Origin: Luteolibacter sp. Y139
Lineage (GTDB): Bacteria; Verrucomicrobiota; Verrucomicrobiia; Verrucomicrobiales; Akkermansiaceae
Assembly: GCF_038066715.1 (NCBI RefSeq)
Contig: NZ_JBBUKT010000001.1
Span: forward strand, 62,001-126,000
Direction: 5' to 3'
Length of the DNA: 64,000 nucleotides
This document shows positions 18,165 to 56,254 of this stretch, in pieces. The position numbers were made by a program, and so were the translations under genes. Each line of letters opens with the position of its first letter. Within the stretch, counting starts at the first letter, position 1. The notes beneath the pieces were generated by a model that was not told the DNA's origin, did no database searches, and saw only the letters and a program-made list of their open reading frames with translations.

Positions 18165-19181
18165 TCAACGCCCCAATCGACACGCTGCCGCCTGCTCATT
18201 GCCGCCCAAGGTGACTACCAGCGCCTCGTTCGCGTCACCGCGGCGAAGCCTCTCCACCGCAGCCACCAGCTGATGTCCCGCCGAAGCCCCGAAGCAATCG
18301 CCAAGCACCGGCTTCACCGAAAATCGCGGACCAGCCCACGCCCTGAATGCCTCATTCTCCGGCGCGTCGAAACTCGCTACGCCACTGCGGCTATCTGCCA
18401 ACAAGGTGCGACCGTCATCACTCGCTTCAGCCGCGAAGGCGGCTTCCTTCAACGCCGCCACACGGTCCACGCCGCCGCCTAACAAAACCGGATCCGGAAT
18501 CGAAAGCAGCTGCGGACCTTCGCCTCCCATTTCCAAATACAGCGCGGCTGCACCTTCGGACGGAATCGCATTGCCCGAGTAAAGACGCAGGCCTTCCGAA
18601 CTCAGCCAATCGATCTCCTCAGGGGCAACGACCAGCACCCCATCGCAATCCCCACGCAGCAACCACTCCGTCGCGATCTCCAGCGCCGTATAAACCTCCG
18701 CACCATCACCGAGGATCGTGTCGTTCGGCGAGGTCGAATTGAAGAGCGCCGAAAGGTGACTGGAGGGCGCGTTGAAAACCGTCTCCGGGAAAAGGATCGG
18801 ACTCGCCACCGAAGGATCCGCCAGCACCTCGCCGAAGAAGCGGTTCGAGTAATTCACGCAGCCATTGAACAGCGCACAAACCACTCCCAGCCGGATCTCA
18901 CCCGAAGCCGCCTTTGCCACACGCTCCGCACCCAGCGCCTCCATTGCCGCCGCAGCCGCGAATTTCGAAACCGGACTCACCCGCCGCAACCGCGGACTCT
19001 TCGGCAAGGTCGACGGCGCCGCCGGCACCCGCAGCACAGGCGTGCTCACCGGCTCGCCCTGCTTCCGCTCGCGAACCAGCTCGGAAAGCTCCGGCCGTGC
19101 ACCAGAATCCAGCGCCTCCATCATCGCAGGCACGCCCCAACCCGCCGAACTCACAGCGCCAGTGCCGGTGATGCGAATCAC
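18165..19181 (-). CDS. ketosynthase-like protein without the active-site Cys (chain-length-factor-like)
   Basis: Protein of 338 residues with a thiolase-fold KS pattern (MIRITGTGAVSSAGWG; FGASAGHQLVAAVERL; VVTLGGNEQAA). At the nucleophilic elbow, where the partner gene reads NACASG, this one reads NAPSSH, so the Cys is lost. KS-like subunits lacking Cys act as chain-length factors for a catalytic partner (as in type II polyketide and aryl-polyene systems). It overlaps the upstream ketosynthase gene by ATGA, which fits a heterodimer. The protein is shorter than a full KS (~410). No product can be named from the sequence. Confidence 0.72.
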   Translation of the reverse strand: MIRITGTGAVSSAGWGVPAMMEALDSGARPELSELVRERKQGEPVSTPVLRVPAAPSTLPKSPRLRRVSPVSKFAAAAAMEALGAERVAKAASGEIRLGVVCALFNGCVNYSNRFFGEVLADPSVASPILFPETVFNAPSSHLSALFNSTSPNDTILGDGAEVYTALEIATEWLLRGDCDGVLVVAPEEIDWLSSEGLRLYSGNAIPSEGAAALYLEMGGEGPQLLSIPDPVLLGGGVDRVAALKEAAFAAEASDDGRTLLADSRSGVASFDAPENEAFRAWAGPRFSVKPVLGDCFGASAGHQLVAAVERLRRGDANEALVVTLGGNEQAAACRLGR

Positions 19182-20419
19182 GACAGCACCTCCTTTTGGA
19201 AGATCAGCGTGGCATTCGCACCGCCGAAGCCGAAGGAATTCGTGAGCACGGTATTCACCACCGCCTCCCGCGGTTGTTGAACAAGGTCGAATTCCACCAC
19301 CGGATCAATCTCGCGGACATTCAAGCTGGCAGGCAAAAACTGGTCACGCAGCGCAAGCAGGCAAATCACCGACTCCACCGAACCAGCACCGCCTAACAAG
19401 TGACCGATCGCCGACTTGGTCGACGAGACCTTGATCTTGGAAACCGCATCCCCCGCCCAGCGCGAGATCGCACGCGCCTCAGCCACATCATTGAGCGGCG
19501 TGCCGGTGCCGTGGGAATTGATGTAATCAATCTGCTCCGGCTCCAGCCCCGCGGCACGCGTCGCCTTCTCCATCGTCGTCAGCGCCGCATCGCCTTCAGG
19601 ATGCGGCTGCGTGAGATGGTGAATGTCGGTCGCCGCGGCATACGAAAGCACCCGTGCAAAAATGTTAGCCCGCCGTGCCTTCGCCGCTTCCAGCGACTCG
19701 ACCACGACGAAGCCCGCGCCTTCACCAAGCGCCAAACCATCTCGCGCCGCATCAAAAGGCCGCGGGATACCACTCGGCGAAAGCGCCTGCAGCGAATCGA
19801 AACCCGCGAAAACCAGCTGGCACAGCGCATCATACCCACCCGCCAGCACCCGCTCCGCCTTGCCCTCGGAAACCATCTGAAACGCATGCCCGATCGCATT
19901 CGCCCCCGATGCACACGCATTCGAGACAATGCGCAGCGGCCCGCGAACTCCGAGCGCGCGCATCATCTCCATCATCTGGAACTGCGGCTGATAGGTCTCC
20001 ACCCGCGTGAGCTGCCCCCGCTTCGATTTCCCCTCGATCGCCTGAAGATAGTACCGCTCGCCCACCGGCATCGCCGCAGCGGACGTGCCGATCACCACCG
20101 GCATCTCGCCGCCCGACAAACCGGCCGCATCCAATGCCTCACGAGCCGCAAGCCAAGCCATCCGGCTCCCGCGATCCATCCGCTGCCACGCCTTCCGCGA
20201 AACACCGGGCGCACTGTTAGGCAGGTCGACCTGCCCGGCCGTGCCCACCCGTTGCCGCGAGACATCAAACAGATCCACCGGGCGGAATGCAGTCCGCCCC
20301 GCGCGAAAGCCTGCCGAGTTCTCCGCCAGATCCGCGCCCATCGGCGTCAAGATCCCGGCACCGGTGATGGCGACGGGACGCAGTGCGGAAACTGGGGGTT
20401 GATCGGCTCGGAATGCCAC
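19178..20419 (-). CDS. beta-ketoacyl-ACP synthase (FabF/ApeO-like)
   Basis: Protein of 413 residues with a complete Cys-His-His triad: NACASGANAIG (Cys ~170), INSHGTGTPLND (His ~310), and KSAIGHLLGGAG (His ~345), plus NSFGFGGANA near the end. It condenses malonyl-ACP onto an acyl-ACP. Best start is the GTG at 20419, which gives ~14 residues before RPVAITGAG. A Cys-less partner follows with an ATGA overlap; such KS/CLF pairs are typical of polyene and polyketide pathways rather than housekeeping FabF. A hairpin (20419-20448) lies right at its start codon. Confidence 0.88.
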   Translation of the reverse strand: MAFRADQPPVSALRPVAITGAGILTPMGADLAENSAGFRAGRTAFRPVDLFDVSRQRVGTAGQVDLPNSAPGVSRKAWQRMDRGSRMAWLAAREALDAAGLSGGEMPVVIGTSAAAMPVGERYYLQAIEGKSKRGQLTRVETYQPQFQMMEMMRALGVRGPLRIVSNACASGANAIGHAFQMVSEGKAERVLAGGYDALCQLVFAGFDSLQALSPSGIPRPFDAARDGLALGEGAGFVVVESLEAAKARRANIFARVLSYAAATDIHHLTQPHPEGDAALTTMEKATRAAGLEPEQIDYINSHGTGTPLNDVAEARAISRWAGDAVSKIKVSSTKSAIGHLLGGAGSVESVICLLALRDQFLPASLNVREIDPVVEFDLVQQPREAVVNTVLTNSFGFGGANATLIFQKEVLS

Positions 20420-20448
20420 CGGCGGCAGCTAGGCAAGAGCGCCGCCGG
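20419..20448 (-). other. inverted repeat at the ketosynthase start codon
   Basis: CCGGCGGC / GCCGCCGG, 8 perfect pairs around a 14-base loop. On the minus strand the 3' arm runs into the GTG start of the ketosynthase gene. It may sequester the start or be part of the boundary after the RND gene; there is no U-tract, so it is not a standard terminator. Confidence 0.4.
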
Positions 20449-20472
20449 TTGTCAAACCCCGCGGGCCCTTCC

Positions 20473-23400
20473 TTAGCCCGCGCTCGGTGCCAGCTCTCCG
20501 GAAACTTCTTCCTCATCAATCTCCTCGTGAGCCTGATGTTTCCCCGCAATAATCGAGTAGAAAGCCGGCACCACGAACAGCGTGAAAAGGGTCCCCACGA
20601 TCATCCCGGTCACCAGCACGATCCCGATGCTGTTCCGCGATTCCGCACCCGCACCGGTCACGAAGATCAGCGGAGCATGCCCGAAGACCGTCGCCGCCGT
20701 CGTCATCAGAACCGGCCGCAAACGGGTCTGCGCAGCCTCCTTCAGCGCCGCGACCTTCTCCAATCCCTTCGCCTGAAGCTCATTCGCGAACTCCACGATC
20801 AAGATCCCGTTCTTCGCAATCAGACCCACCAGGGTGATGAGACCCACCTGCGAGTAGATGTTGATCGTCGTGAAGCCCATGAACGTGAACGCCAGCGCTC
20901 CGGAAATCGCGAGCGGCACCGAACCGAGCAGGATGATCAACGGATCACGGAAGCTGTGGAATTGCGCCGCCAGCACCAGATAGATCAGCACCACCGCAAA
21001 GCCGAGCGTCACCACCAGCGCCGACCCTTCCTTTCGGATCTGCCGGGACTCGCCGCCGTAATCCAGCGTGACACCCGGAGCGATCGCCTTCCGCGCCGCG
21101 CCCTCAAGCACACTAAGACCGGCCTCCTTGGTGATCCCGGGCTTCACACCGCCGAAGATCTTCACCGCATTCCGCTGCTGGAAGCGGTTCAAGGTTCGCG
21201 GCGAAGTAGTGGCCTCGACACTCGTGAAAGTCGAAACCGGAACCAGCCCGCCATCCGGAGTCTTGATCTTGAGATCAAGCAACGGACCCACCGCCGCACG
21301 GTCGCTGTCACCGAGCTGAGGGATCACCTTGTAGCTGCGGTCGAAGTAGTTGAAGCGATTCACATAGGCACCGCCAAGCAAGGTGCCCAGTTCCTGCCCC
21401 ACACCGGCAAGGTCGAGCCCAAGGTCAGCCAGGCGCTCGCGATCAATCATCACTTTCGCCTCGGGCCGATCGATCTTCAGGTCGGTATCGACGTAGAGGA
21501 ATTTCCCGCTCTGGAAACCAGCCCCTATGATCTGCTGGGCGACCGGAAGCAACTCCTGAACAGGTCCATCCGTCTGAAGAACCATCTCCACATCATACTG
21601 CCCCGGTGTCGGCAGCGAGGGATCCAAACGCGGGAACACCCGCAATCCAGGCACCTGCGAAACCGCACCAAAGACCTGCCCGTAGATTTCTTCCGAAGTC
21701 CGGTCACGCTCGTCCCACGGCTTCATCGCCATCCCGCCAAATCCACCCCAACCCGCCGTGAGCGACCACATGAAGCGGGTCTCCGGGAACGCGGTGATCT
21801 TCTTCACAAGCTCCTGCGAATCACGATTCGCAGCCTCGATGGTCGAGTCCGGCGACGTGTCCAGGAAAAGGCTGATGTGGCTCTGGTCTTCCACCGGAGC
21901 CAATTCGCTCTCCGACATCTTGTAGAACGGCCACGCCGCAAGCATGATGACGACAGCCAGGCCAAGGATCACCCAGCGAATGCTCAAAGCGCCATCCAGC
22001 GCCACCGAGTAGGCCGCCTTCACGCGATCGAAGGCACGATTGACCAGACGCGTGAGGAATCCTTCCTGCCCCGTCTTGTGAATGAAGCGCGAGCTCATCA
22101 CCGGCGAAAGCGTCAGCGCCACGAAACCCGAAACGATCACCGCCGCCGCCAGCGTGATGGCAAATTCAAGGAACAGCGACCCGGTAAGCCCGCCCTGGAA
22201 ACCGATGGGAGCATAGACCGTCGCCAGCGTGATCGTCATCGCGATGATCGGCCCCTTGAGCTCCCGCGCTCCCAGTAAGGCTGCCTGAATGCGCGATTTC
22301 CCTTCCCGCACGTGGCGCTCGATGTTTTCCACCACCACAATCGCGTCGTCCACCACCAGACCGACGGAAAGCACCACCGCGAGAATGGTCAGCAGGTTCA
22401 GGCTGAAACCACAGGCCAGCATGATCGCCGCCGTGCCGATCAATGAAATCGGCATGGCAATCAAGGGCACCAGCGCGGTGCGGATAGAACCCATGAAAAC
22501 GAACACCGCGAGACCCACGATCAGGATCGTCTCGCCCAGCGTCTTGCTGATCTCCTTCAGCGCCTCGCGCATGAACATCGTCCCGTCATAGGCGAGGTTC
22601 ATTTCGATGTCCTCCGGCAGCGTCGGACGGATAACGTTCATTTCCTCTTCAAGCGCTTTGGCGACATCGATCTCGTTCGATCCCACCAATGGCCAAATCC
22701 CCAGATACACACCCTCCTTTTCACTGTGCTTCGCGATCAGGTCGGGCTCTTCCGAACCGAGCTCCACCTTCGCGACATCCGTCAGGCGAACGATCGCGCC
22801 GTCGCGCTCGACCACGATCAGCTTCTCGAAATCATCCGTGGACCGCAGGTCCGTATTCGCGAGCAGGTTGACCTCCACGAGGTTGCCCTTGGTCCGTCCC
22901 ACCGCAGCCAAATAGTTGTTCCGCCGCAGCGCGGAGTGAACATCGCCCGGCGTCAGATTCAGCGCGGCCAAACGGTCGGGATCGATCCAGATCCGCATCG
23001 CGATTTGCCGTCCACCTTCGATCGTCACCCGCTGGATCCCCGGCAGCGTCGCAAACTGCGGCTGAAGCGAGCGCGACAACCAGTCGGTCACCGCTGAGAC
23101 ACTCCGCTTATTGGACGTGAAGCTCAGATAAAAGGTCGCGTAGGGCCGGTCCGCGCGCTGGATCTCCACCATCGGCGGCTCCGCATCCGGCGGCAGCTCC
23201 GCACGGACCTGCTGGAGCCGGGCGCTGATCTCGGCCAGCGCCGCGGTGGTGTTGTGGTTCAGCTTGAGATGCACGGTCACCGTGCTGACGCCGGCACGAC
23301 TGCTGGACTCCACATGATCGACACCGCCGATCTGCGACGCGACACGCTCGATCGGCGTCGTCAGGAAGCCGCGGACCGTCTCGGCACTCGCCCCGTAGTA

Positions 23401-23556
23401 AAGCGTGGTGATGAGCACCGACGAGCTTTCCAGCTTCGGGAACTGCTGCACCGGCAGCGAGCCGATCGCACGCCAACCCACGAGAACGATCACGAGGTTG
23501 ACCACGATGGCGAGCACCGGGTGTTTGATGAAAATATCGGTGAAGGAGCGACGCAT
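20473..23556 (-). CDS. RND-family efflux transporter, inner membrane pump
   Basis: Protein of 1027 residues, the size of AcrB-like pumps. The N-terminal helix is HPVLAIVVNLVIVLVGW, and a large periplasmic loop follows. Transmembrane segment 4 holds GLVVDDAIVVVENI with the paired Asp of the proton relay; a second set of helices follows (e.g. GLITLVGLIAKNGILIVEFANEL). This is the HAE-1-like class that pairs with an adaptor and an outer-membrane channel. Cargo is unknown. It lies 21 bases after the adaptor gene and is the last gene of the tetR-adaptor-pump operon. No outer-membrane TolC is encoded here. Confidence 0.93.
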   Translation of the reverse strand: MRRSFTDIFIKHPVLAIVVNLVIVLVGWRAIGSLPVQQFPKLESSSVLITTLYYGASAETVRGFLTTPIERVASQIGGVDHVESSSRAGVSTVTVHLKLNHNTTAALAEISARLQQVRAELPPDAEPPMVEIQRADRPYATFYLSFTSNKRSVSAVTDWLSRSLQPQFATLPGIQRVTIEGGRQIAMRIWIDPDRLAALNLTPGDVHSALRRNNYLAAVGRTKGNLVEVNLLANTDLRSTDDFEKLIVVERDGAIVRLTDVAKVELGSEEPDLIAKHSEKEGVYLGIWPLVGSNEIDVAKALEEEMNVIRPTLPEDIEMNLAYDGTMFMREALKEISKTLGETILIVGLAVFVFMGSIRTALVPLIAMPISLIGTAAIMLACGFSLNLLTILAVVLSVGLVVDDAIVVVENIERHVREGKSRIQAALLGARELKGPIIAMTITLATVYAPIGFQGGLTGSLFLEFAITLAAAVIVSGFVALTLSPVMSSRFIHKTGQEGFLTRLVNRAFDRVKAAYSVALDGALSIRWVILGLAVVIMLAAWPFYKMSESELAPVEDQSHISLFLDTSPDSTIEAANRDSQELVKKITAFPETRFMWSLTAGWGGFGGMAMKPWDERDRTSEEIYGQVFGAVSQVPGLRVFPRLDPSLPTPGQYDVEMVLQTDGPVQELLPVAQQIIGAGFQSGKFLYVDTDLKIDRPEAKVMIDRERLADLGLDLAGVGQELGTLLGGAYVNRFNYFDRSYKVIPQLGDSDRAAVGPLLDLKIKTPDGGLVPVSTFTSVEATTSPRTLNRFQQRNAVKIFGGVKPGITKEAGLSVLEGAARKAIAPGVTLDYGGESRQIRKEGSALVVTLGFAVVLIYLVLAAQFHSFRDPLIILLGSVPLAISGALAFTFMGFTTINIYSQVGLITLVGLIAKNGILIVEFANELQAKGLEKVAALKEAAQTRLRPVLMTTAATVFGHAPLIFVTGAGAESRNSIGIVLVTGMIVGTLFTLFVVPAFYSIIAGKHQAHEEIDEEEVSGELAPSAG

Positions 23557-23577
23557 GGCCCGGGTGGGGAAAGAGCT

Positions 23578-24681
23578 TTAGTGAGCCTGTGGCGGGGCTT
23601 GGCCGGCATCGGCGACGAGCACGCCATCGCGAAGCTTGAAGGAGCCGGAAGCGGCAACGGGCTCGCCCGCGGTTAGACCGCTCTCGACAATGACTTCGTC
23701 ACCCAGCACCGCACCGCCTTTCACCATCCGTATGGCGGCGCGCGGCTTGCCGTCTTTGCCTGGAACCACCACAAAAACATGATCACCTTCAGGCCCGCGG
23801 CGCATCGCACTCACGGGGATGGCGACCACCTTGCGCGGCCCACCCACGGGCACGTTCACCTGCACCGAAGCGCCAGGCGACGGCAGCAGCTTGGCGTCCG
23901 CAACCTTCGCGCGGATGTTCGCATTGCGGGTGGCGCGATCGATTCGGGAATCGAGAGCGATGATGGTGGCACTCACCGGCGTATCCTTGTTTGCACCAAT
24001 GACCTCGACCGTGTCGCCTTCGTGTAAAACCTCAGCCACGCTTTGAGTGACGGTGAAATCGACATGCGCGGCCTCGTCCACGCCCTGTAGCGTCGTAAGC
24101 ACCGTGCCCTCCTCCAGGTATTGGCCTGGGTGCAGATCCGACAAGCCGATGCGGACCCGGAAGGGCGCGTGGATCACCTTGCGAGCAATCATCGCCTTCG
24201 TTCGCTCCATCTGGGCCAATATCACATCGTGCTCGGCCTTGGCTTGATCCAGATCCTTCTTCGAGCTCGCGCTGCTGGAAGCCAGCGATTCCACACGGTG
24301 CAGCGTGGCATCAGCCAGCGCCGCCTGAGCCTCCTGCGCTTTCAATTCGGCCTCCTCCACCGAGACATCCATCGCGACCAGCTCGGCTCCCGCATCGACC
24401 ACCTTGCCGGGTGTCAGGTCGACGCGTGCCACGGTCCCGGCGAGCTCGTTCTTCAAGGTCACCGACCGCAGCGCGAGCACGGTGCCGACAGCCGTGGTCG
24501 TCCGGCGATGCTCAATCTCCCGAGCTGGCTTAACAATCACCGCCTCCATCGGCTCCGGCATCATTGCCGCCTCGTCAGCCGCTTTCTTCTGGTCCGCTTT
24601 TTTCCAAGCAGCCAAGCCGATGCCCGTCCCCGCCACGATGGCGATGAGCACCAGCGATCCAATCCATTGCGATGCCTTCAT
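23578..24681 (-). CDS. RND efflux adaptor (periplasmic membrane-fusion protein)
   Basis: Protein of 367 residues. N-terminal anchor WIGSLVLIAIVAGTGIGLA. The lipoyl-like halves lie on either side of a helical hairpin: GTVARVDLTPGKVVDAGA, then LKAQEAQAALADATLHRVE and AKAEHDVILAQMERTKAMI, then LSDLHPGQYLEEGT. A beta-barrel and membrane-proximal part follow. These are HlyD/AcrA-family features; the protein joins the inner pump to an outer channel. ATGA overlap with tetR upstream and 21 bases to the pump downstream show one operon. Confidence 0.9.
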   Translation of the reverse strand: MKASQWIGSLVLIAIVAGTGIGLAAWKKADQKKAADEAAMMPEPMEAVIVKPAREIEHRRTTTAVGTVLALRSVTLKNELAGTVARVDLTPGKVVDAGAELVAMDVSVEEAELKAQEAQAALADATLHRVESLASSSASSKKDLDQAKAEHDVILAQMERTKAMIARKVIHAPFRVRIGLSDLHPGQYLEEGTVLTTLQGVDEAAHVDFTVTQSVAEVLHEGDTVEVIGANKDTPVSATIIALDSRIDRATRNANIRAKVADAKLLPSPGASVQVNVPVGGPRKVVAIPVSAMRRGPEGDHVFVVVPGKDGKPRAAIRMVKGGAVLGDEVIVESGLTAGEPVAASGSFKLRDGVLVADAGQAPPQAH

Positions 24682-25289
24682 GGTTCCTGATGAGTCGTCG
24701 TTTCAGATCCTGTTTTCTTGGAAGATTCGATGGACTGGGCGAGCGCCCGCTCCAGCACCCCTCGCATCCGGTCGAGGTCCTCCTGGCTCACCGGCCGCAA
24801 CCGCAGCACCCAATAAAGCCATAGTCCGTCGATCGCCGTCGCCAGGGTCTCGGCGACCCCATCCGGCAATCCATCCGCCTGCAAATAACCGTAAAGCTCC
24901 TGATAAGCCTCCTGCATCGGCGCCACCAAACCCGGATTCTGCGCCAACGCGGCAAACACGGAAGAATAGCTGCGCCGAAGCTCCTCCGTCCACGACTGGG
25001 CGTCCGTAAAACACCCTTGTAAAAGCCCCCGCACCATCCGCCCCGGCCCGGGCGAGGCATTCTCGTAGGCCGACGTGAAATGAAGCCGCCATCCATCCGC
25101 CGCCCGCCGGACCATCCCCTCGATCAGCTGGTCCTTGTTCGTGAAATAGTGCAGCAGGCCACCCTTGCTGACCCCGGCTTCGGCCGCCACGGCATCAAAG
25201 GTCAGCCGCGAAACGCCCTCCCGTGCCGCCACCGTTTCCGCCGCGTCGAGCAGTTGGTCCCTGAGGGACGATGAAGTGAGTTTTCCCAT
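24678..25289 (-). CDS. TetR-family transcriptional repressor of the RND operon
   Basis: Protein of 203 residues from the ATG at 25289 (MGKLTSSSLRDQLLDAA). The N-terminal helix-turn-helix is DAVAAEAGVSKGGLLHYFTNKDQLIE (residues ~30-55), the standard TetR pattern; the C-terminal part is a helical ligand-binding domain. Two palindromes of the same sequence lie 17-53 bases upstream and are very likely its operators, so it represses its own operon (tetR, adaptor, pump). The inducer might be the pathway product or a toxic compound exported by the pump. Overlaps the adaptor gene by ATGA. Confidence 0.9.
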   Translation of the reverse strand: MGKLTSSSLRDQLLDAAETVAAREGVSRLTFDAVAAEAGVSKGGLLHYFTNKDQLIEGMVRRAADGWRLHFTSAYENASPGPGRMVRGLLQGCFTDAQSWTEELRRSYSSVFAALAQNPGLVAPMQEAYQELYGYLQADGLPDGVAETLATAIDGLWLYWVLRLRPVSQEDLDRMRGVLERALAQSIESSKKTGSETTTHQEP

Positions 25290-25305
25290 GCCGCGCCGCA
25301 ACCAA

Positions 25306-25342
25306 ACCGTCCAGACGGTCGGAGTCAAACCGTCTGGACGGT
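25306..25342 (-). promoter_or_regulatory. twin palindromic operators of the TetR regulator
   Basis: ACCGTCCAGACGGT (25306-25319) and its exact reverse complement ACCGTCTGGACGGT (25329-25342), with arms ACCGTC/GACGGT and a 23-base centre-to-centre distance. A TTGACT hexamer on the minus strand lies between them and could be a -35 box. The position directly before the tetR start is the usual one for autoregulation. Confidence 0.75.
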
Positions 25343-25580
25343 CGGACTCGATTTTCCCTGTCATGCAAATCATTCCACCCCTTCGACGAACGAGGCGGGC
25401 CAGACGTGACAGAACCGCGTCGATTCTTGCCTGCCGCTGGGTGCGCGGAGCCTCTGGCCCGCAGAATGAGCCCTCAAAATCCGCCGTTTCCCAATGATCC
25501 GCCAAATCAACGAGCCAGGTTTCCCCGATCTCAGGAAATGGTGCTGCCGGGTTCGCTTCCGCGGGCCAAAGACTCCGCTC

Positions 25581-26033
25581 TCAAGCATCTTCCGCCAAGC
25601 GGCGTATCACCTCGTTCCGTTCCTCCAACAGCCGCCGCATGTATCGCTCCAGAAAGAGCACATCCGCCAAACGCCCTAGCACACCAAGCGGTGCAGTGTA
25701 GTCGAAGACATCCGTCATCCGCGTCCCACTCGGAATCTCCTCAAAGTGGTGATCGTGGACAAATCCAGCGAACGCCCCCGAAATCATCGAGTCCCGGAAG
25801 TGGACCGGCTTCGTCATCGCATCGATACGACTGGCGAGCCGCTGCCGCACGCCGAAATGGGTCGCCTCCCACGTCACCGTCTCCCCCGCCTCGATCAGCC
25901 CCGAAGTCCGCCCCGCAACCGCCTTCTCACCGTGCCTCGTCTGGCTCTCCTGATGGACATCGATGCTCCGCGCGAAATCGAACACCCTTTCGATCGGTGC
26001 GGCGATGTCAGTAACGATTTCAATCCGGGGCAC
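25581..26033 (-). CDS. SRPBCC/START-like ligand-binding protein
   Basis: About 150 residues from a GTG at 26033 (VPRIEIVTDIAAPIERVFDFARSID), the typical start of SRPBCC (polyketide cyclase/dehydrase) proteins. Central strands include FRDSMISGAFAGFVHDHHFEEI, and the C-terminal helix is RYMRRLLEERNEVIRRL. Family members bind hydrophobic ligands in a deep pocket; in polyketide loci they act as cyclases or aromatases. The frame stays open to an ATG at 26108, which would add a Cys-rich lead (ELPGEKCQVPCGACLSGCC); this longer form is possible. It is divergent from the degenerate ligase gene. Function is inferred. Confidence 0.65.
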   Translation of the reverse strand: MPRIEIVTDIAAPIERVFDFARSIDVHQESQTRHGEKAVAGRTSGLIEAGETVTWEATHFGVRQRLASRIDAMTKPVHFRDSMISGAFAGFVHDHHFEEIPSGTRMTDVFDYTAPLGVLGRLADVLFLERYMRRLLEERNEVIRRLAEDA

Positions 26034-26123
26034 ACCCGGAGTTTGGAGGCAACAACCGCTCAGGCAAGCCCCACAAGGAACTTGGCACTTTTCACCCGGA
26101 AGCTCCATCCCTAGGCAGACCGA

Positions 26124-27359
26124 GTGCTATTCTCCCGCTGGCTGCAAACCCTCGACCAATCAAGCGACCGGATCGCTCTGATCGATGGAGCGGAGCACAT
26201 TACCTTTTCAGATCTCCACAAGCGCTTAACCCGGTTGCCGAAAGCGAACGGACCTGTGATCGCGCAAGGATCCGCCGTCGATATCGCGCTCGCCGCTTTG
26301 CGTGGTTGGCGCGATGGACAGCCGGTCCTCCCGTTGGAAAAAGGAGCTGCCATCCCGGAGCTACCCGCGTCATTTCCCGAAGGCACGGCGCACTTGAAGC
26401 TAACCCCGGGCATCGAAGGAAAACCCCGCGCCGTATTCTTTTCCGCGGAACAGATCGCAGCCGACGCCGACCGCCTCGCCGCAGCGATGCACCTGCACCA
26501 TGAGGTGCCGAACCTGGCCGCAGCATCGCTCACGCACTCCTACGGCTTCTCCAGCATCATCCTGCCCCTGCTGCTGCACGGCGTGCCAGTGCACGTCGTG
26601 GAAGTGCCCTTCCCGAAAATCATGGCTGATGCCATCGCGCAGCACGATGGCGTGGTGCTGCCGGGAGTCCCCTCGATGTGGAAGGCATGGCATCGCTCGG
26701 GGATCCTGCGCGAGGCCAAGATCGCGCTCGCCGTCTCAGCCGGCGCACCACTGTCGCTCGAACTGGAATGCTCGGTCTTCAACGACTGCGGCCTGAAGCT
26801 CCACAATTTCTACGGAGCCAGCGAATGTGGCGGGATCTCCTACGACACCAGCGAGACACCACGGGAAAGCGCCGCCGATCTCGGCACGCCCTTGCCCGGA
26901 GTCAGCGTGAAGGTTTGCGAGTCAGGGCGCTTCCTCATCGGGAGCACCTCGGTCGCACTCGGCTACGAGTCGAAACGCGAAAGCGAGATCCTCGGCAATG
27001 GCAGCTTTCTCACCCAGGACTTCGGACGCATTGAAGACGGACGCATGATGTTAGAAAGCAGCGGCGCGGAATCCATCAACGTCGCCGGCCGCAAGATCGG
27101 CCCGGCAAAAATCGAGGCCGCCCTCATGGCCAGCGGTCTGGTGATGAGAGCCCGCGCCTTCGGCGTCCCCAGCCACGATCCCGAGCGCGTCGAAGAAGTC
27201 ACCGCCATGGTGGAACTGAAATCCGGCACGCTCGAGCAACTCCGCCAGCGCATGACCGAAGTCCTCGCCGGCTGGGAAATGCCTCGCCATTGGGAGACGG
27301 CCGCGGACGATTCCCTGTGGACGCTTTCCCGCGCCGACCTTAAAAGGCGGCACTCATGA
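26124..27359 (+). CDS. degenerate acyl-activating (AMP-binding) enzyme
   Basis: Protein of 411 residues; GTG start. It keeps the later ANL-family motifs: FYGASECGGISYDTS (A5), GTPLPGV (A6-like) and GAESINVAGRKIGPAKIE (A8). But the N-terminal P-loop (SSGTTGxxKG) is replaced by LTPGIEGKPRAV, and at the end where SGKLKR would carry the catalytic Lys it reads SRADLKR. It may therefore be a transferase-like or carrier-binding relic rather than an adenylating enzyme. It is shorter than usual (~480-550). The lipoprotein gene follows with an ATGA overlap. The intact relative lies at 54.8 kb. Confidence 0.72.
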   Translation: MLFSRWLQTLDQSSDRIALIDGAEHITFSDLHKRLTRLPKANGPVIAQGSAVDIALAALRGWRDGQPVLPLEKGAAIPELPASFPEGTAHLKLTPGIEGKPRAVFFSAEQIAADADRLAAAMHLHHEVPNLAAASLTHSYGFSSIILPLLLHGVPVHVVEVPFPKIMADAIAQHDGVVLPGVPSMWKAWHRSGILREAKIALAVSAGAPLSLELECSVFNDCGLKLHNFYGASECGGISYDTSETPRESAADLGTPLPGVSVKVCESGRFLIGSTSVALGYESKRESEILGNGSFLTQDFGRIEDGRMMLESSGAESINVAGRKIGPAKIEAALMASGLVMRARAFGVPSHDPERVEEVTAMVELKSGTLEQLRQRMTEVLAGWEMPRHWETAADDSLWTLSRADLKRRHS

Positions 27360-28258
27360 TTCCCACATGGACTCGCCGGAACTGGATCGGATTGTCCGGC
27401 TTCGCCCTGCTCGGATGCCAAGAGCGCAAGGCACCAACTGCTACGAAGCCAACGCCAATCCCGGCCACACGGAAACTTTTCGCCGGCCCATTCTCCGTCA
27501 ATGTTCCCGATGACTGGGCCAAAACGGCCGTGATCAAGCAGGTGCCCATGCATCCGCTTTACACCGCGGAGGAGTGGAAGCAGACGCAAACGGACCAACA
27601 GTTCATTCTCAAGCCAAGCTATTACAACCGTCCGCTTCACTGGGCCATCCGCCTGCCAGCTGCCACGCCGAGCGGCATCCCCATCGAACCCGAGAACGCC
27701 GACGATGACTCGGAGGCAGCCCAGATCCTGATTCACAAGGCGGACGAGTGGGGATCAATCATGACGGACGGCACTGTAGGCCGGGAGAAGCCCGACAAAT
27801 CACTCGGCACTCTTCGGAAGCAGATCGATGAGGCCGCCACAGGCGATGGCGATGTGAGTTCGCCCGCCTTTGTGGATGGGAGCGCTGGCTTTCCGACCTT
27901 GAAGAAGCGCCTTGAGTTTGATGGAGGTCACGGAATTCGGACCGTCACGCAATGGTTGTTCGAAAACGACCTCATGAGAAAGGGACGCCTTCACTACCTT
28001 TTTGTCGGCATGTCGGACGACAACACCTGCCAAATCATCGCCACCTTCCCGATCACATTACCCGGCTTGCCGGATGACTCACCTGACGCCGAACACTTGG
28101 GCCGAAGCTCAAGGCGCGAGGAAGATCTCTCCCAAAACTTCGAAGCCTACTGCACCGAGGCCGAAGCGTGGCTTGCCACGCACGCCGCGGAGATTACTCC
28201 GGGCTTGCAGACCTTGGACGACATGATCCGAAGCCTCGTCGTCCGCCGCTGGGAGTGA
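27356..28258 (+). CDS. lipoprotein of unknown function
   Basis: Protein of 300 residues. Signal with lipobox GFALLGC (Cys at residue ~21), preceded by the RR-containing WTRRNWIG, then a Pro/Thr-rich linker. The mature domain contains LFAGPFSVNVPDDWAK, KPSYYNRPLHWAIRLP and QWLFENDLMRKGRLHYLFVG. It overlaps the ligase-like gene by ATGA, so they are co-translated. Codon use includes a few rare AT-ending choices. No family recognised; location is likely the periplasmic face of a membrane. Confidence 0.62.
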   Translation: MIPTWTRRNWIGLSGFALLGCQERKAPTATKPTPIPATRKLFAGPFSVNVPDDWAKTAVIKQVPMHPLYTAEEWKQTQTDQQFILKPSYYNRPLHWAIRLPAATPSGIPIEPENADDDSEAAQILIHKADEWGSIMTDGTVGREKPDKSLGTLRKQIDEAATGDGDVSSPAFVDGSAGFPTLKKRLEFDGGHGIRTVTQWLFENDLMRKGRLHYLFVGMSDDNTCQIIATFPITLPGLPDDSPDAEHLGRSSRREEDLSQNFEAYCTEAEAWLATHAAEITPGLQTLDDMIRSLVVRRWE

Positions 28259-28264
28259 AGCCGC

Positions 28265-28693
28265 TCAGGAAGCGCTCTCCTGCCCGCTGAGCATGATCTT
28301 CGCCGAGGCAAGCGGCCGGTCACCCACACTGACCTCACCCGACACTTGGATCATCCCACCAAGACGCCCCTCGACCTCGGCCTTCAGCGTCAACGTTTCC
28401 CCCGGCTTGGCCACTCCCAGAATCTTCGCCCCACGCACCCCGGTCAGCAGCAGATTCTCCAAAGGCGGAATCGCCGGATCACTCTGCGCCACCACCCCGC
28501 CGAGCTGCGCAATCGCCTCGATCAGGATCACCCCGGGCATCAGCGGATTCCCCGGAAAGTGCCCGGCGAGAAAGCCCTCGTCACCCCGCACTAGGTAGCT
28601 GGCAGTCGCGGATTTCCCCGGATCGAGCGTTTCGATCGCATCGACGAAGCGGAATTCCGGCCCGTGGGGCAGCGCAGCGAGAGGATCTTGCAT
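28265..28693 (-). CDS. FabZ-like 3-hydroxyacyl-ACP dehydratase
   Basis: Protein of 142 residues from the ATG at 28693 (MQDPLAALPHG). The hot-dog fold active site is GHFPGNPLMPGVILIEAIAQ (His and Glu, residues ~50-70), the FabZ signature. FabZ dehydrates 3-hydroxyacyl-ACP to the trans-2-enoyl form. It lies inside the block with the ketosynthase pair, the ligase-like gene and an acyltransferase, and is divergent from the latter; housekeeping fabZ usually sits in an lpxA/lpxD context, which is not seen here. A pathway-specific role is likely. Confidence 0.85.
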   Translation of the reverse strand: MQDPLAALPHGPEFRFVDAIETLDPGKSATASYLVRGDEGFLAGHFPGNPLMPGVILIEAIAQLGGVVAQSDPAIPPLENLLLTGVRGAKILGVAKPGETLTLKAEVEGRLGGMIQVSGEVSVGDRPLASAKIMLSGQESAS

Positions 28694-28809
28694 CGCTGCG
28701 ATCCATCCCCTCCCCAGCCGCCCTGACAAGCCCCGAGAGGCTCTAACACTACGGAAATTTCCATCGACCGTGTGGATTCAAACACGTTAGACTCGCCGCG
28801 CTGTTGTCC

Positions 28810-29646
28810 ATGCCCTCCTTGGAAAGCCAAACTCTCCCCCGGCCCGATTCCGCGGCCGCGCAAGCGCGCCGCTGGTGGCGCTGGCCATGGGAAATGGCGG
28901 CCACGCTCGGAGGCATCGCCTACTGGGGCATCTTCGGGCTGCTCTTCACCGCGATCTCGATTCCCCTGATCATCCTGCTCCCCTGCGCCACCGCGAAAAA
29001 GCTCGGCCGCAGCATGCTGCACCGGGCCTTCCGGGTTTTCGTGGCCTACCTGCGGGCCACCGATCTGGTCTACGCCGACTTGAGCTCGCTCGATGCCCTG
29101 GAGGAGGAAAAGCAGCCCGTCATCATCGCGCCGAACCACACCTCCCTGTGGGACGCCGTCTTTGTGATTTCCAAGCTCCCGCAGCCGATCTGCATCATGA
29201 AGGAGGCGATCCTGAAGAATCCCTTCCTCGGCGGCGGCGCCCGGCTGGCCGGCTACATCCCCAATGGATCCTCCTCCCGGATGGTGAAAGACGCTGCCGG
29301 GGCGCTCCAGAAGGGCGGGCAGCTCCTCCTTTTCCCCGAGGGCACCCGCACCCGCCGCGAAGCCCGCTGGATCAATCCCCTGCGCGGCGGCTGCGCCCTG
29401 ATCGCCCGGAAAGCCGGCGTCGCCGTCCGCCCGGTTTTCATCCGCAGCAATACCCGCTTCCTCGAAAAAGGCTGGCCGCTCTGGCAAAAGCCGGAATTCC
29501 CCATCCGCATCAGCATTGAGCTCGGCGAACCGGTCCTGCCGGGGGAAAACGAGACCGCACACGAGTTCACCAAGCGGCTCGAGGGGATCTACGAGCAGAA
29601 TCTTTCCCGCGCCCACAAGCTGCGGCGGCAGGTGGAAGCGGGCTGA
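28810..29646 (+). CDS. lysophospholipid/acyl acyltransferase (PlsC-like, LPLAT)
   Basis: Protein of 278 residues from the ATG at 28810 (a TTG two codons upstream is possible). Hydrophobic N-terminal segment AYWGIFGLLFTAISIPLIILL, then the acyltransferase motifs NHTSLWD (HX4D, ~110) and FPEGTRTRREA (~175). It transfers an acyl chain from ACP or CoA to a lipid or glycolipid. The first LPLAT at 280 belongs to the phospholipid operon, so this second one may attach a special acyl or polyene chain. No domain beyond LPLAT is seen. Confidence 0.85.
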   Translation: MPSLESQTLPRPDSAAAQARRWWRWPWEMAATLGGIAYWGIFGLLFTAISIPLIILLPCATAKKLGRSMLHRAFRVFVAYLRATDLVYADLSSLDALEEEKQPVIIAPNHTSLWDAVFVISKLPQPICIMKEAILKNPFLGGGARLAGYIPNGSSSRMVKDAAGALQKGGQLLLFPEGTRTRREARWINPLRGGCALIARKAGVAVRPVFIRSNTRFLEKGWPLWQKPEFPIRISIELGEPVLPGENETAHEFTKRLEGIYEQNLSRAHKLRRQVEAG

Positions 29647-29750
29647 CGCGGAAGGAATTCCGAATTCCGCTTGTGACGCGGGTCCGCCCTCCCCTACGTT
29701 CCGCCCGCCGCGCGGGAAGCCCTCCTACCTTTTGCGGCAGTATCGCGCCC

Positions 29751-30890
29751 ATGAAAGCCATTCTTGCCCTGGAAGACGGCCGCCTTTTCGAAGGCCGTGC
29801 CTTCGGAGCCTCCGGAACGACCACCGGGGAAATCTGCTTTAATACCTCGATGACGGGCTACCAGGAGGTCATCACCGACCCCTCCTACCGCGGTCAAATC
29901 GTCTCGATGACCTACCCGCAGATCGGAAACTACGGGATCAATCCGGAAGACGCCGAGTCGTCCGCTCCACACGTCCGCGGCTTCGTGATCGGCGAACTTT
30001 CGCCCGTCGCCTCGAACTGGCGCTCGCGGATGACCCTGCCCGACTACTTCTCGGAGCACGGTGTGCTGGGCATCGAGCACGTCGACACCCGCGCCCTGAC
30101 CAAGCACCTGCGCTCCCGCGGTGCCATGCGCGCCTGCCTGACCACCCAGCTTTCCAGCGAGGAAGCCATCTCCACCGCCCGGAAGTCCCCTTCCATGGAA
30201 GGCATGGACTACGTGCAGGAAGTCTCCACCCCGAGCGATTACCTCTGGGATTCCGAGTCACGTCGCTTCACCCTGCCGAATGCCCTGACCGGCCATCTCG
30301 ACACCTACTTCGAGCTGCCCCCGATCAAGCATCGCATCGTCGCCTTCGACTTCGGCATCAAGTGGAACATCCTCCGCCGCCTGCGCCAGGCCGGCTTCGA
30401 GGTGGACGTGGTGAATTCCCGCACCACCGCCGAAGCGGTCCTGGCCAAAAACCCGGACGGCATCTTCCTCTCGAACGGCCCGGGCGACCCGGCCGCCCTC
30501 GGCTACATCCACGAGGAAATCAAGAAGCTCATCGGCAAGAAGCCCGTCTTCGGCATCTGCCTCGGCAATCAGATCCTCGGCCACGTCTTCGGCGGCAAGA
30601 CCTACAAGCTGAAGTTCGGCCACCGCGGTGGCAACCAGCCGGTCAAGGACCTGCGCAGCGGACGGATCTCCATCACCTCGCAGAACCACGGCTTCGCCGT
30701 CGATCCCGACTCGCTGCCGTCGAACGCGGAAGTCACTCACATCAATCTGAACGACGACACCGTCGAAGGCATCCGCCACAAGGACATGCCCGTGTTCTCC
30801 GTCCAGTATCACCCGGAAGCCGCCCCCGGCCCGCACGACGCGACCTACTTCTTCGAAGAATTCGCCTCCCTCATCGACTCCACCAAATAG
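29751..30890 (+). CDS. carA: carbamoyl-phosphate synthase small subunit (glutaminase)
   Basis: Protein of 379 residues. N-terminal CarA domain: TSMTGYQEVITDPSY and YPQIGNYGINPED. C-terminal class I glutaminase: FLSNGPGDPA, the nucleophile in GICLGNQILG (Cys, with Asn where His is common), and VQYHPEA with the His/Glu of the triad. It gives ammonia from glutamine to CarB for arginine and pyrimidine synthesis. Start MKAILALEDG at 29751 rather than the upstream in-frame codons, which are not conserved. carB is not in the window. purA follows 44 bases later. Confidence 0.95.
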   Translation: MKAILALEDGRLFEGRAFGASGTTTGEICFNTSMTGYQEVITDPSYRGQIVSMTYPQIGNYGINPEDAESSAPHVRGFVIGELSPVASNWRSRMTLPDYFSEHGVLGIEHVDTRALTKHLRSRGAMRACLTTQLSSEEAISTARKSPSMEGMDYVQEVSTPSDYLWDSESRRFTLPNALTGHLDTYFELPPIKHRIVAFDFGIKWNILRRLRQAGFEVDVVNSRTTAEAVLAKNPDGIFLSNGPGDPAALGYIHEEIKKLIGKKPVFGICLGNQILGHVFGGKTYKLKFGHRGGNQPVKDLRSGRISITSQNHGFAVDPDSLPSNAEVTHINLNDDTVEGIRHKDMPVFSVQYHPEAAPGPHDATYFFEEFASLIDSTK

Positions 30891-30899
30891 CTTCTACCA

Positions 30900-30927
30900 C
30901 TGATCACCGATCACTGATCACTGATCA
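30900..30927. repeat. four-copy heptamer tandem repeat between carA and purA
   Basis: CTGATCA-CCGATCA-CTGATCA-CTGATCA: a 7-base unit in four copies, one base changed in the second. It lies 7 bases before the purA ATG, in the position expected for a ribosome binding site; no AGGAGG-like sequence is seen there. Confidence 0.6.
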
Positions 30928-30934
30928 CTTCCGA

Positions 30935-32203: not shown

Positions 32204-32258
32204 AATTCACTACCGCTTCATGCAATCCGCGTCCCCCCTCCCTAGCTTCGGCCGCGAC

Positions 32259-53276: not shown

Positions 53277-53519
53277 ATGGAAAACGAGCTGACCCACCTC
53301 ATCGCCACCGAGATCCTCGACACGGACCACGCGCTCACGCCCCAAAGCGATTTGTTCGCGGCCGGGCTTGATTCGATGGGCATCATGCAGCTCCTGCTAG
53401 CCATCGAGGACCGCTTCGGCGTGCCGATCGATCCCGCCGACCTGTCGCGCGACAACTTCTCCACCGCGGAAAAAATCGCCGCTCTGGTCGCGGAGAAAAA
53501 AGAGGCTGCCAATCGCTGA
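53277..53519 (+). CDS. acyl carrier protein
   Basis: Protein of 80 residues. The phosphopantetheine attachment site is GLDSMGIMQLLLAIED, with the Ser of the DSM motif near residue 37. Acidic helices and length fit ACPs. It is the first gene of a three-gene set (ACP, condensation-like, ligase) with the next gene starting directly after its stop. It probably carries an acyl or aryl group activated by the downstream ligase. It is not the housekeeping acpP, since no fab genes adjoin it. Confidence 0.9.
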   Translation: MENELTHLIATEILDTDHALTPQSDLFAAGLDSMGIMQLLLAIEDRFGVPIDPADLSRDNFSTAEKIAALVAEKKEAANR

Positions 53520-54827
53520 ATGCCGGAGTCCGTCCAAACTCTCCCGCCGCTCGCCGCCACCCCCGCCGACGGTTTCCTATTCGGCCTGGAGAGCCTGATG
53601 CGCCGCAGCCGCCAAGGGCTCCACTTGGCCGCGACCGTCATCGAGTGCGAGGGCAAGCCCGACCTCGCCGCCCTGCGAAATGCGGCAGAGGTGCTGGGAC
53701 ATCGCTATCCCATCGTTCATGCCCGCATCGCCCGCGGTGGTGATTTCATCGCCCGCTGGCGGCTCGACGAAGTGACGCCAGCGGCAATCCCGCTGGAAGT
53801 CCATGAGACTCCCGAGCTGCATGATTTCATCGAGACTCAGCTCAATTCCCATAAGCCGGACATCCGCACCGCCGGAGCGAACCTGCGTTTCCATGTGGTG
53901 ATCACCTCACCGTCCACCTGGGCGCTCGTGCTCATCTGGAGCCACTCGCTGCATGATGCCGTGGGCATCGACAAGCTGCTTCTGGAGATCGCCTCACCCG
54001 GTGACGACCGCACTCCACGCAGTGGAGGCAATGACTCCCCCGCCCCGGCCCCACCGATGTCGGAGCTCTACAAGCAGGCCCTGCCCATGATCGAGGAGAT
54101 GCGGACCTTCCCCCAGTGGCGGGTTCGCTCCCTGCACCGGAAAGGCGTCCGCCCCGGGGAAAGCCGGGTGCAAGTGGTCAAGTTCGACCGCGAAGCCACC
54201 GCTTTGATCCGAACAAAGATGGCCGCCACGGCCGGTGAGCTACTACTCCTTCCGTACTTCGCCAGCATCGCTGCTCGGGCGGCGCAGTCGGTGATTGCGG
54301 CACGGCATCCCGACGAGCAAGTTCCAGTACTGCTCTCCCTGCCTGTCCAGCTCAAGGGAGACCGCCCTCTGTTCCAGAACCACCTCGGAGTCTACACGCT
54401 GTTGCTGACCGCCGGGGAGCTCGCCGAACTGAAACCGGCGACGCGCGCACTCTACCGCAAGTATGCCGACTTCATGCGCCGCAAGCTGCCCGCCGCGATG
54501 GACGCGCTCATGCGGATGATGGAGCGCTGCCCCTCCCGCTTCTACAATTTCCCGGTCTTCACGTATCTGAAAGGCGAGCTGTGCACGCTGTTCCACTCGC
54601 ACACCGGTGGCTTCGCGCCGGGGCTGGCGGAAATGCACGGCAGCCGCGTGACCAATGGCTACCACGTCCCCTCGGTATGCTCGCCGCCGGGCATCGGGAT
54701 CTTCTTCTCGGAGTTCGCGGGGCAGCTCTCGATGACACTGTCGTGGAAGGACGGCTGCCTTTCGCCCTTGGAGCTGGAGCTGCTGAAGCAGACACTCGCC
54801 GAAGACCTCGGAGCGCCCGTGCCGTGA
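53520..54827 (+). CDS. condensation/acyltransferase-fold protein (HxxxD type)
   Basis: Protein of 435 residues. A probable HxxxD catalytic motif lies at SHSLHDAVGIDKLLL (~140), where NRPS condensation and WS/DGAT acyltransferases have HHxxxDG; the second His and Gly differ. Other hints are the size and LLSLPVQLKGDRPLFQNHLG near the middle (a WS/DGAT/condensation-like bridge). Between an ACP and an AMP ligase, it likely moves the carrier-bound acyl group onto an alcohol or amine. The stop overlaps the next GTG start (GTGA). The acceptor is unknown. Confidence 0.7.
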   Translation: MPESVQTLPPLAATPADGFLFGLESLMRRSRQGLHLAATVIECEGKPDLAALRNAAEVLGHRYPIVHARIARGGDFIARWRLDEVTPAAIPLEVHETPELHDFIETQLNSHKPDIRTAGANLRFHVVITSPSTWALVLIWSHSLHDAVGIDKLLLEIASPGDDRTPRSGGNDSPAPAPPMSELYKQALPMIEEMRTFPQWRVRSLHRKGVRPGESRVQVVKFDREATALIRTKMAATAGELLLLPYFASIAARAAQSVIAARHPDEQVPVLLSLPVQLKGDRPLFQNHLGVYTLLLTAGELAELKPATRALYRKYADFMRRKLPAAMDALMRMMERCPSRFYNFPVFTYLKGELCTLFHSHTGGFAPGLAEMHGSRVTNGYHVPSVCSPPGIGIFFSEFAGQLSMTLSWKDGCLSPLELELLKQTLAEDLGAPVP

Positions 54828-56254
54828 ACCTGATCGAAGAAATCGCCCGCCGTCATGATCCCGCAACGCTGGCCGTCGTCAGCGGCGAGCGTCGCCTGAC
54901 CTACGGCGATCTCTTTCGCTGCGCTCGCGAAATCGGCGCGCAGATTCCTACCATCGGACGGATTCCGCGCATCGGCCTGCAATGCCCGAATGGCGTCTCC
55001 TACATCGTGCTGTCGATGGGCGTCCTGTTGGCCGGTGGCTGCCTGGTGCCCTTGGCCGAAGAACTGACCGCTGCCGAGCGCACCGAAATCGCGACAACTA
55101 CCGCCCTCGACTTCATCTTGGCCGCCGACGAATTGCCGTGGCACGGCACGGAGGAGACCCTGCTCTCCTCGGAAAGCGATGGCACGCCGTGGAAGCTGCT
55201 CCGTTCCGCTGATCTAACACCTGCTTTCCCTGAGGACGGCTTCCAAGCCCTCAATCCCGCCTTCATCCGCTTCAGCTCCGGCACCACCGGCACCAGCAAG
55301 GGCGTGGTCCTCTCCCACGAAACCCTGCTCGCCCGCATCACCGCGGCGAATGAAGGGCTGCAAATCGGCCCGGCGGACCGCGTGCTCTGGATGCTGCCGA
55401 TGGCCCATCACTTCGCCGTTTCGATCGTGCTCTATCTCCACTTCGGTGCCACCACCGTGCTGGAGCACTCCGCGATGCGTGAAGACATCCTCACCACCGC
55501 GGAAAAGCATCAAGCGACAGTCATCTACGGCTCGCCCTTCCACTTCGGGATGCTGTCCGGCGACAAGGGGGGCTTCCTCTGGCCGTCGCTTCGGCTCGCC
55601 GTCGCCACGGCAGCGGCTTTGCCGGAGGTCACGGCAAAGGCCTTTGAGCAGCGCTTCGGCAAACCGCTCCACCAAGGACTCGGCATCATCGAAGTCGGGC
55701 TCTCCGTTCTCAACCTCGACGCCGCCAGCGAAAAGCCAACCTCCCTCGGCAAGCCGCTGCCTGCCTACGAGGTCGAGCTGCGCGACGACGAGTTCCACGT
55801 CCGCGGCCCCGGCCTGTTAGACGCCTACCTCGTCCCTTGGAATCCCTCGCCTCTCGACGACGGCTGGTTCGCCAGCGGCGACCTCGTGCAACGCGATGAA
55901 GACGGCCACCTATTCCTCATGGGCCGCAAGAAGTCGGTCATCAACGTCGCCGGTATGAAAGTCTTCCCGGAAGAAGTGGAGCGAGTCCTCAACGACCACC
56001 CCGCCGTGACCCGCAGCCGCGTCTTCGGCCGCGAACACCCGCAGATGGGCCAAGTCCCGGTCGCCGAAATCATCCCCACCGACCCCGCCCTTCCGCCCAA
56101 GCCGATCGAACTTCAGCGCCACTGCAAGGCCCTCCTCTCCGCCTACAAGGTGCCCATGGTCTTCAGGATGGTCGAGTCGCTCCCTCTCACCGCGTCCGGC
56201 AAGCTAAAACGCGTACCCAGCGACCCCGGGAGCGCCGGTCTCCAGACCGGCTGA
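54824..56254 (+). CDS. acyl/aryl-activating AMP ligase (ANL family)
   Basis: Protein of 476 residues; GTG start in a GTGA overlap. It has all core motifs: SSGTTGTSKGVVL (P-loop A3, ~150), GLGIIEVGLSV (A5), GWFASGDLVQRDEDG (A7), GRKKSVINVAGMKVFPEEVE (A8) and LPLTASGKLKR with the catalytic Lys (A10). It activates a carboxylic acid to its adenylate and passes it to the ACP two genes upstream or to CoA. Size and motif order suggest a fatty-acyl or aryl-CoA/ACP ligase. This is the intact counterpart of the degenerate enzyme at 26.1 kb. Confidence 0.88.
   Translation: MNLIEEIARRHDPATLAVVSGERRLTYGDLFRCAREIGAQIPTIGRIPRIGLQCPNGVSYIVLSMGVLLAGGCLVPLAEELTAAERTEIATTTALDFILAADELPWHGTEETLLSSESDGTPWKLLRSADLTPAFPEDGFQALNPAFIRFSSGTTGTSKGVVLSHETLLARITAANEGLQIGPADRVLWMLPMAHHFAVSIVLYLHFGATTVLEHSAMREDILTTAEKHQATVIYGSPFHFGMLSGDKGGFLWPSLRLAVATAAALPEVTAKAFEQRFGKPLHQGLGIIEVGLSVLNLDAASEKPTSLGKPLPAYEVELRDDEFHVRGPGLLDAYLVPWNPSPLDDGWFASGDLVQRDEDGHLFLMGRKKSVINVAGMKVFPEEVERVLNDHPAVTRSRVFGREHPQMGQVPVAEIIPTDPALPPKPIELQRHCKALLSAYKVPMVFRMVESLPLTASGKLKRVPSDPGSAGLQTG

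Follow-up and report, generated by a model that had tools for sequence, protein, structure and literature searches.

The window analysed here is a stretch of 64,000 nucleotides from Luteolibacter sp. Y139 (positions 62001-126000 of contig C1 of this genome, G000, which is 7.1 Mb in size and 97% complete). An 11.5 kb block within it encodes a ketosynthase (KS), a KS-like partner of the chain-length-factor kind (CLF), a degenerate ligase of the ANL family (ANL1), a dehydratase (DH) and an acyltransferase. Our analysis indicates that this block is probably the condensation core of a type II polyketide synthase (PKS) pathway for a pigment or lipid of the aryl polyene (APE) type, i.e. similar to the xanthomonadin, arcuflavin and APE pathways, and that the genes of the pathway are scattered round the chromosome; the chemistry, substrate and product assigned to it below are predictions from gene content.

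A ketosynthase pair and its scattered partner genes

The genes of the block that we assign to the pathway are:

CLF, 18165..19181, minus strand: KS-like partner without the catalytic Cys/His/His, with a conserved FPETVFNAPSSH motif
KS, 19178..20419, minus strand: catalytic ketosynthase (C169, H303, H340) of a Verrucomicrobiota clade, partner of CLF
ANL1, 26124..27359, plus strand: two-domain ANL-fold protein without P-loop, motif-8 Arg and motif-10 Lys (pseudo-ligase)
DH, 28265..28729, minus strand: FabZ/FabA-type hot-dog dehydratase
Acyltransferase, 28804..29646, plus strand: PlsC-type, 32% identical to E. coli ApeD

The CLF and KS open reading frames (ORFs) overlap by 4 bases. C169, H303 and H340 of the KS are invariant across an alignment of 20 sequences, and in CLF none of the three is retained (Gly stands in for Cys, and Asp for the last His), in agreement with the catalytic KS and Cys-less partner described in an earlier, sequence-only reading of this DNA. 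The pairing of a catalytic KS with a non-catalytic CLF is a trait of type II PKSs of the aryl polyene/xanthomonadin type. In a 46-sequence tree the Verrucomicrobiota KSs formed one clade (support 100/99) that did not include E. coli FabF; the FabF of G000 itself was also separate, encoded at C13:113 kb and placed outside the KS clade; together these results rule out that the KS is a housekeeping FabF. A second, divergent KS-like gene of G000 (L001:8153-10341, i.e. C2:20-22 kb) was rejected as a partner, being ~26% identical and standing alone directly beside an L,D-transpeptidase-HAD fusion gene.

The best 80 of 301 CLF matches in GTDB contigs were all from Verrucomicrobiota, and the named relatives were Luteolibacter and Haloferula, of the Verrucomicrobiales lineage. 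The closest solved relative of CLF is found in chains B and C of PDB 9s5h, with which it has an FPxTVxNAPAS motif in common; a literature search did not find the source paper for this structure. Ten genomes encode a KS-CLF fusion protein of 770-850 residues (loci L183-L187, L190, L194, L198 and L199 of family f4, genus g15, and L047:8376-10715 in G024). Type II KS-CLF fusions seem to be unusual in nature. In another branch of the phylum a HydE/PylB-like radical S-adenosylmethionine gene, sometimes with a UbiE-like methyltransferase gene, recurs beside KS-CLF (L124:6024-7046 and homologues at L131, L139, L142, L148, L151, L153, L163 and L170), and may serve another tailoring step or another starter.

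Most relatives, from several families of the order, have ANL1 (divergent) next to KS and CLF, and DH homologues (51-89% identity) were present in most of the 19 loci matched. Other families, and within this family some outlying genera, encode a ketoreductase (KR) and an acyl carrier protein (ACP) directly after CLF. Consolidated clusters with the same KS-CLF were found in G130 (L052/L145), G148 (L200) and G040 (L046/L130). A single stretch of G130 encodes a glycosyltransferase (GT), a methyltransferase (MT), a polysaccharide deacetylase, an LpxL-like acyltransferase, a halogenase-like flavin adenine dinucleotide (FAD) enzyme, an MMPL protein, DH and ANL1, together with KS, CLF, KR, ACP, an LPG_synthase_TM protein, LolA, an FAD enzyme, a second ligase, a further FAD enzyme and a second ACP. 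The G148 and G040 clusters are similar, and that of G040 adds an FkbO/Hyg5-type chorismatase. In G000 the pathway genes lie at the following places:

Locus a, window 18-29 kb: KS, CLF, ANL1, DH, acyltransferase
Locus b, window 53.3-56.3 kb: a second ACP (ACP2), a condensation-fold protein (COND) and a second ligase (LIG2)
Locus c, C1:472-476 kb: GT, MT, deacetylase and LpxL-like acyltransferase, in the same gene order as in G130
Locus d, C1:753-756 kb: KR (755.5-756.2 kb), ACP, LPG_synthase_TM, patatin
Locus e, C1:928 kb: FAD enzyme (48% identical)
Locus f, C2:714 kb: FAD enzyme (52% identical)
Locus g, C13:4-5 kb: FAD enzyme and an ACP2-type ACP

The KR at C1:755 kb is 62-67% identical, and its ACP 58-65% identical, to the genes directly after CLF in relatives. 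The earlier statement that no ketoreductase is present therefore holds for the 11.5 kb block and fails for the genome. KR, DH and dedicated ACPs, as found in such pathways, are all encoded in G000 (DH in the block, KR and ACP at C1:755 kb), and would act jointly. As a control for the scatter we used single-contig (closed) chromosomes, i.e. those of G101, G124 and G104. In G101, CLF lies at 1.55 Mb, ACP at 0.99 Mb, the LpxL-like gene at 1.64 Mb and LIG2 at 4.03 Mb, and G124 and G104 are similar. The scatter is therefore not an assembly effect.

We determined gene profiles in a panel of 142 genomes of the order (CLF and LIG2) and in one of 117 genomes of the family (CLF, ACP, LpxL-like and COND). 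In the order, CLF was present in 68 genomes, as a rule in single copy, and absent from one genus of small genomes, probably Akkermansia. In the family, CLF was present in 21 genomes and both ACP and the LpxL-like gene in 22, i.e. the same 21 genomes and G173 (Fisher 2.8e-22, a value that overstates the case because related genomes are not independent). The KS phylogeny and the comparison of relatives, both proposed as checks by the sequence-only reading, thus came out in its favour: the KS stands apart from housekeeping FabF, and the genes do co-occur. Alternatively, the fatty-acid-type genes could be neighbours by chance and have no pathway in common, as might be supposed from the lineage-specific efflux insertion that the block holds and from its border with the housekeeping genes carA-purA-uppS. 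However, KS-CLF-ANL1 adjacency spans several families and the unlinked parts have one phylogenetic profile; we consider this explanation refuted for KS, CLF, ANL1, KR, ACP and the LpxL-like gene, and hardly credible as a whole.

A degenerate ligase and a second ligase-carrier pair

The ANL1 of the window has TPGIEG in place of the P-loop TSGSTG and ESS in place of the motif-8 GR, and lacks the motif-10 GK lysine, whereas intact ANL1 proteins have all three. Its clade retains an NFYGASE-type motif, the motif-7 Asp and an INVAGRK-type motif. As P-loop, motif-8 Arg and motif-10 Lys characterise active ANL ligases, ANL1 looks inactive as a ligase, as had been proposed. A tree split degenerate (41) from intact (21) ANL1 sequences by a single branch, also with the motif columns removed, and on this tree the motif loss is an event that happened once. 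The ratio of nonsynonymous to synonymous substitution rates (dN/dS) of ANL1 against its three closest relatives was 0.17-0.28; the gene is therefore under purifying selection and is not a decaying pseudogene.

The second ligase belongs to the following module:

ACP2, 53277..53519, plus strand: carrier protein paired with LIG2, with a GLDSMG site
COND, 53520..54827, plus strand: stand-alone condensation/PapA5-fold acyltransferase with HxxxD
LIG2, 54860..56254 (start approximate), plus strand: intact ANL ligase (SSGTTG, GR, GK), orthologue of the second ligase of the G130 cluster

This ACP-condensation-ligase module is real, as the sequence-only reading had it. COND gave no match to NCBI/Pfam family names and its identity came from its fold: in the predicted model (pLDDT 79) it is similar to condensation domains and PapA5. 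Judging from this fold and the HxxxD motif, COND could form an ester from an acyl group bound to an ACP. Compared with the G130 cluster, LIG2 shows 44.5% identity to the second ligase there and ACP2 47% identity to the ACP. With regard to a starter ligase for hydroxybenzoate adenylation, ANL1 is without the catalytic motifs and LIG2, whose motifs are intact, is a candidate. A pathway-type FAD enzyme adjoins LIG2 in G064 and G101, and the patatin adjoins ACP2 in G110 and G124. That the module and the block would form one divided pathway, which the sequence-only reading had suggested, is well supported by these shared neighbours and by co-occurrence, because orthologues of LIG2 and ACP2 lie in the KS-CLF cluster of G130, the 13 family genomes with COND are a subset of those with CLF, and 42 of the 43 genomes of the order with LIG2 also have CLF. 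A GH30-type glycosidase gene (window 51721-53163) adjoins the module, as it does in G118 (81%).

LIG2 was present in 25 of 25 checked genomes with degenerate ANL1 and in 2 of 9 with intact ANL1 (G047 and G004; Fisher 6.7e-6), which counts as one evolutionary association and not as 25 because the loss happened once. No ANL1 was found adjoining KS in G064 and G101. The predicted model of ANL1 (pLDDT 90.5) has a full two-domain ANL fold, and superposes with a TM-score of ~0.8 on structures such as the MenE complex 5x8f and EntE-EntB and of ~0.67 on ATP-bound MatB. This pose may be read as a carrier-loading arrangement, although the domain pose of a model is weak evidence.

We propose that ANL1 would originally have been the starter ligase in clusters of this type, that in this clade it would have lost catalysis after, or together with, the acquisition of LIG2-ACP2, and that it may have been retained as a non-adenylating partner. 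More tentatively, it might be a dedicated non-adenylating subunit of KS-CLF (e.g. for carrier docking, starter handing or gating), selected across two families after the second ligase-ACP pair took over activation, i.e. a pseudo-ligase inside a type II PKS; this is a possibility to which we give somewhat less than even weight.

Likeness to known pathways and the predicted product

The gene list is similar to that of the xanthomonadin and arcuflavin clusters of Xanthomonas and Azoarcus, with KS, KR, dehydratase, AMP-ligase, ACP, glycosyltransferase, phospholipid-type acyltransferases, methyltransferase, polysaccharide deacetylase, halogenase-like enzyme, LolA and exporter, and in the relative G040 also a chorismatase (PMC3949708). 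The arcuflavin genes of Azoarcus sp. BH72, a xanthomonadin-type aryl polyene system, already lie in separate clusters (PMC3949708). G000 differs in that its genes are spread over at least six places, the ancestral ligase is degenerate, and a second ligase-ACP pair and a condensation-fold protein have been added; moreover, chorismatase, LolA and MMPL were not confirmed in G000.

For comparison with E. coli we used the ape cluster of CFT073 (NC_004431 1143.7-1158.3 kb; PMC8253772), which likewise has KS and CLF, KR, DH, a ligase, two ACPs, a PlsC-type acyltransferase and a methyltransferase. The two-domain ApeJ corresponds to the GT/LpxL-like pair of G000: the first domain shares 42% identity with GT over 240 residues, and the LpxL-like profile matches the second (4.7e-15). 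The ApeJ-type GT2 and LpxL-like genes and the ApeD-type PlsC gene are thus all present, unlinked yet co-occurring. In contrast to the E. coli cluster, in which the ligase ApeH is intact, ANL1 is not, and neither a second KS (ApeR) nor an ApeK thioesterase was found nearby. The resemblance to aryl polyene clusters noted in the sequence-only reading is therefore borne out by the gene set of the consolidated relatives and by both comparisons. By analogy, the G000 pathway would work like an aryl polyene pathway; we do not claim strict membership of the E. coli type.

The likeness to the flexirubin system of Bacteroidota concerns the aryl polyene half; the KR matches the FlxB model below its cut-off (203 of 340 bits), and no dialkylresorcinol genes (DarA/DarB) were recognised in the annotated KS-CLF flanks, no genome-wide search having been made. 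Within Verrucomicrobiota, Oceaniferula flavus has been reported to form yellow colonies and to have an aryl polyene cluster predicted by antiSMASH (PMC9865893). This is a software call, and the parts of that report available to us do not describe gene content, scatter or ligase loss (PMC9865893). A literature search found no paper linking Luteolibacter or Prosthecobacter with aryl polyenes or flexirubin.

In the proposed pathway LIG2 would activate an acid, perhaps an aryl acid, onto ACP2 as the starter, and KS-CLF would condense it with malonyl units borne by the other ACP, which is encoded at C1:755 kb. Each beta-keto unit would become a double bond by the action of the unlinked KR and the FabZ-like DH and, with no enoyl reductase step, a polyene would result. 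The FAD enzymes and the methyltransferase may modify the head group or chain, and GT, the LpxL-like and PlsC-type acyltransferases and possibly COND would attach the polyene to a membrane anchor.

Several results weigh against this interpretation. The branch joining the KS to E. coli ApeO is weakly supported (83/34), and the KS and CLF of the window form a distinct clade far from ApeO/ApeC (the ApeC branch is very long, 5.5, and we gave its placement no weight). The DH matches FabA/FabZ only, and not the Pfam families of ApeI/ApeP. Orthology of the FAD enzymes rests on 47-52% identity among several paralogues. The genomes in which the genes co-occur cluster in the phylogeny, and the family shows only about two clear, independent joint changes, i.e. 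absence in G127 (genus g1) and presence in G220 (g8). No chorismatase, the aromatic starter enzyme, was found at the fetched G000 loci, with no genome-wide search for one. For the LolA and MMPL exporter genes of the G130 cluster no convincing partner was found in G000, where the best MMPL is 30% identical and in another context and LolA was not searched genome-wide; the MMPL genes at C2:210 and C2:515 kb were rejected as exporter for want of supporting neighbours.

The type of DH, the weak affinity to ApeO and the lack of a chorismatase at the fetched loci would also fit a non-aryl product of KS-CLF (e.g. a resorcinol-type lipid or a fatty-acyl chain with several double bonds), the likeness to aryl polyene clusters then being one of shared envelope-lipid tailoring and transport genes only. 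However, the full gene list matches the xanthomonadin/arcuflavin clusters (PMC3949708), the G040 cluster contains a chorismatase, and the halogenase-like FAD enzymes and the methyltransferase are as expected for tailoring of a head group. We therefore regard a non-aryl product as unlikely and prefer the aryl-polyene-type pathway.

Remaining genes of the block and wider meaning

The block also contains the following genes:

RND, 20473..23556, minus strand: AcrB-type RND permease; lineage-specific insertion between ANL1 and KS, probably not core
MFP, 23578..24681, minus strand: RND periplasmic adaptor
TetR, 24678..25505, minus strand: TetR-family regulator; true start probably internal
SRPBCC, 25581..26108, minus strand: SRPBCC protein
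Lipoprotein-like ORF, 27356..28258, plus strand: family not assigned; also adjoins ANL1 in Luteolibacter marinus (45%); absent from the sequence-only reading

The genes that the sequence-only reading had named are all present as intact ORFs. It had taken them for a compact 11.5 kb pathway without ketoreduction, whose product is exported by the RND pump, and they are indeed all adjacent both here and in the sister genome G118. However, only the window, G118 and L094 have RND and MFP immediately between ANL1 and KS, most KS-CLF loci are without them, and among fetched loci SRPBCC occurs only in the window and G118. RND, TetR and SRPBCC are therefore best seen as a local insertion, and RND was rejected as a core, dedicated exporter of the pathway. 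As a KR orthologue also lies elsewhere in G000, and the partner ACP is present in every CLF-positive family genome, the compact pathway is largely refuted and very improbable.

In the window (29673-32966) and in G124 (L041), carA-purA-uppS lies next to the end of the block with the acyltransferase, which indicates that the site itself is conserved. Elsewhere, G000 has a modular PKS/nonribosomal-peptide-synthetase-like locus (C13:78-90 kb) with a 3020-residue open frame containing a KS and several ACPs, and tryptophan-halogenase-family genes, some in tandem (C14:130-136 kb, C12:170-173 kb, C3:710 kb and C1:967 kb).

Cluster-finding software presumes that the genes of a pathway sit together. A pathway of ~15-18 genes that lies in scattered mini-operons, in closed genomes too, yet is retained or lost as a whole, would look incomplete to such software, as it did in the sequence-only reading with regard to the ketoreductase. 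A ligase that lost its catalytic residues in a single event, yet is still encoded beside KS-CLF, makes this a clean system for the role of a pseudo-ligase in a polyketide synthase.

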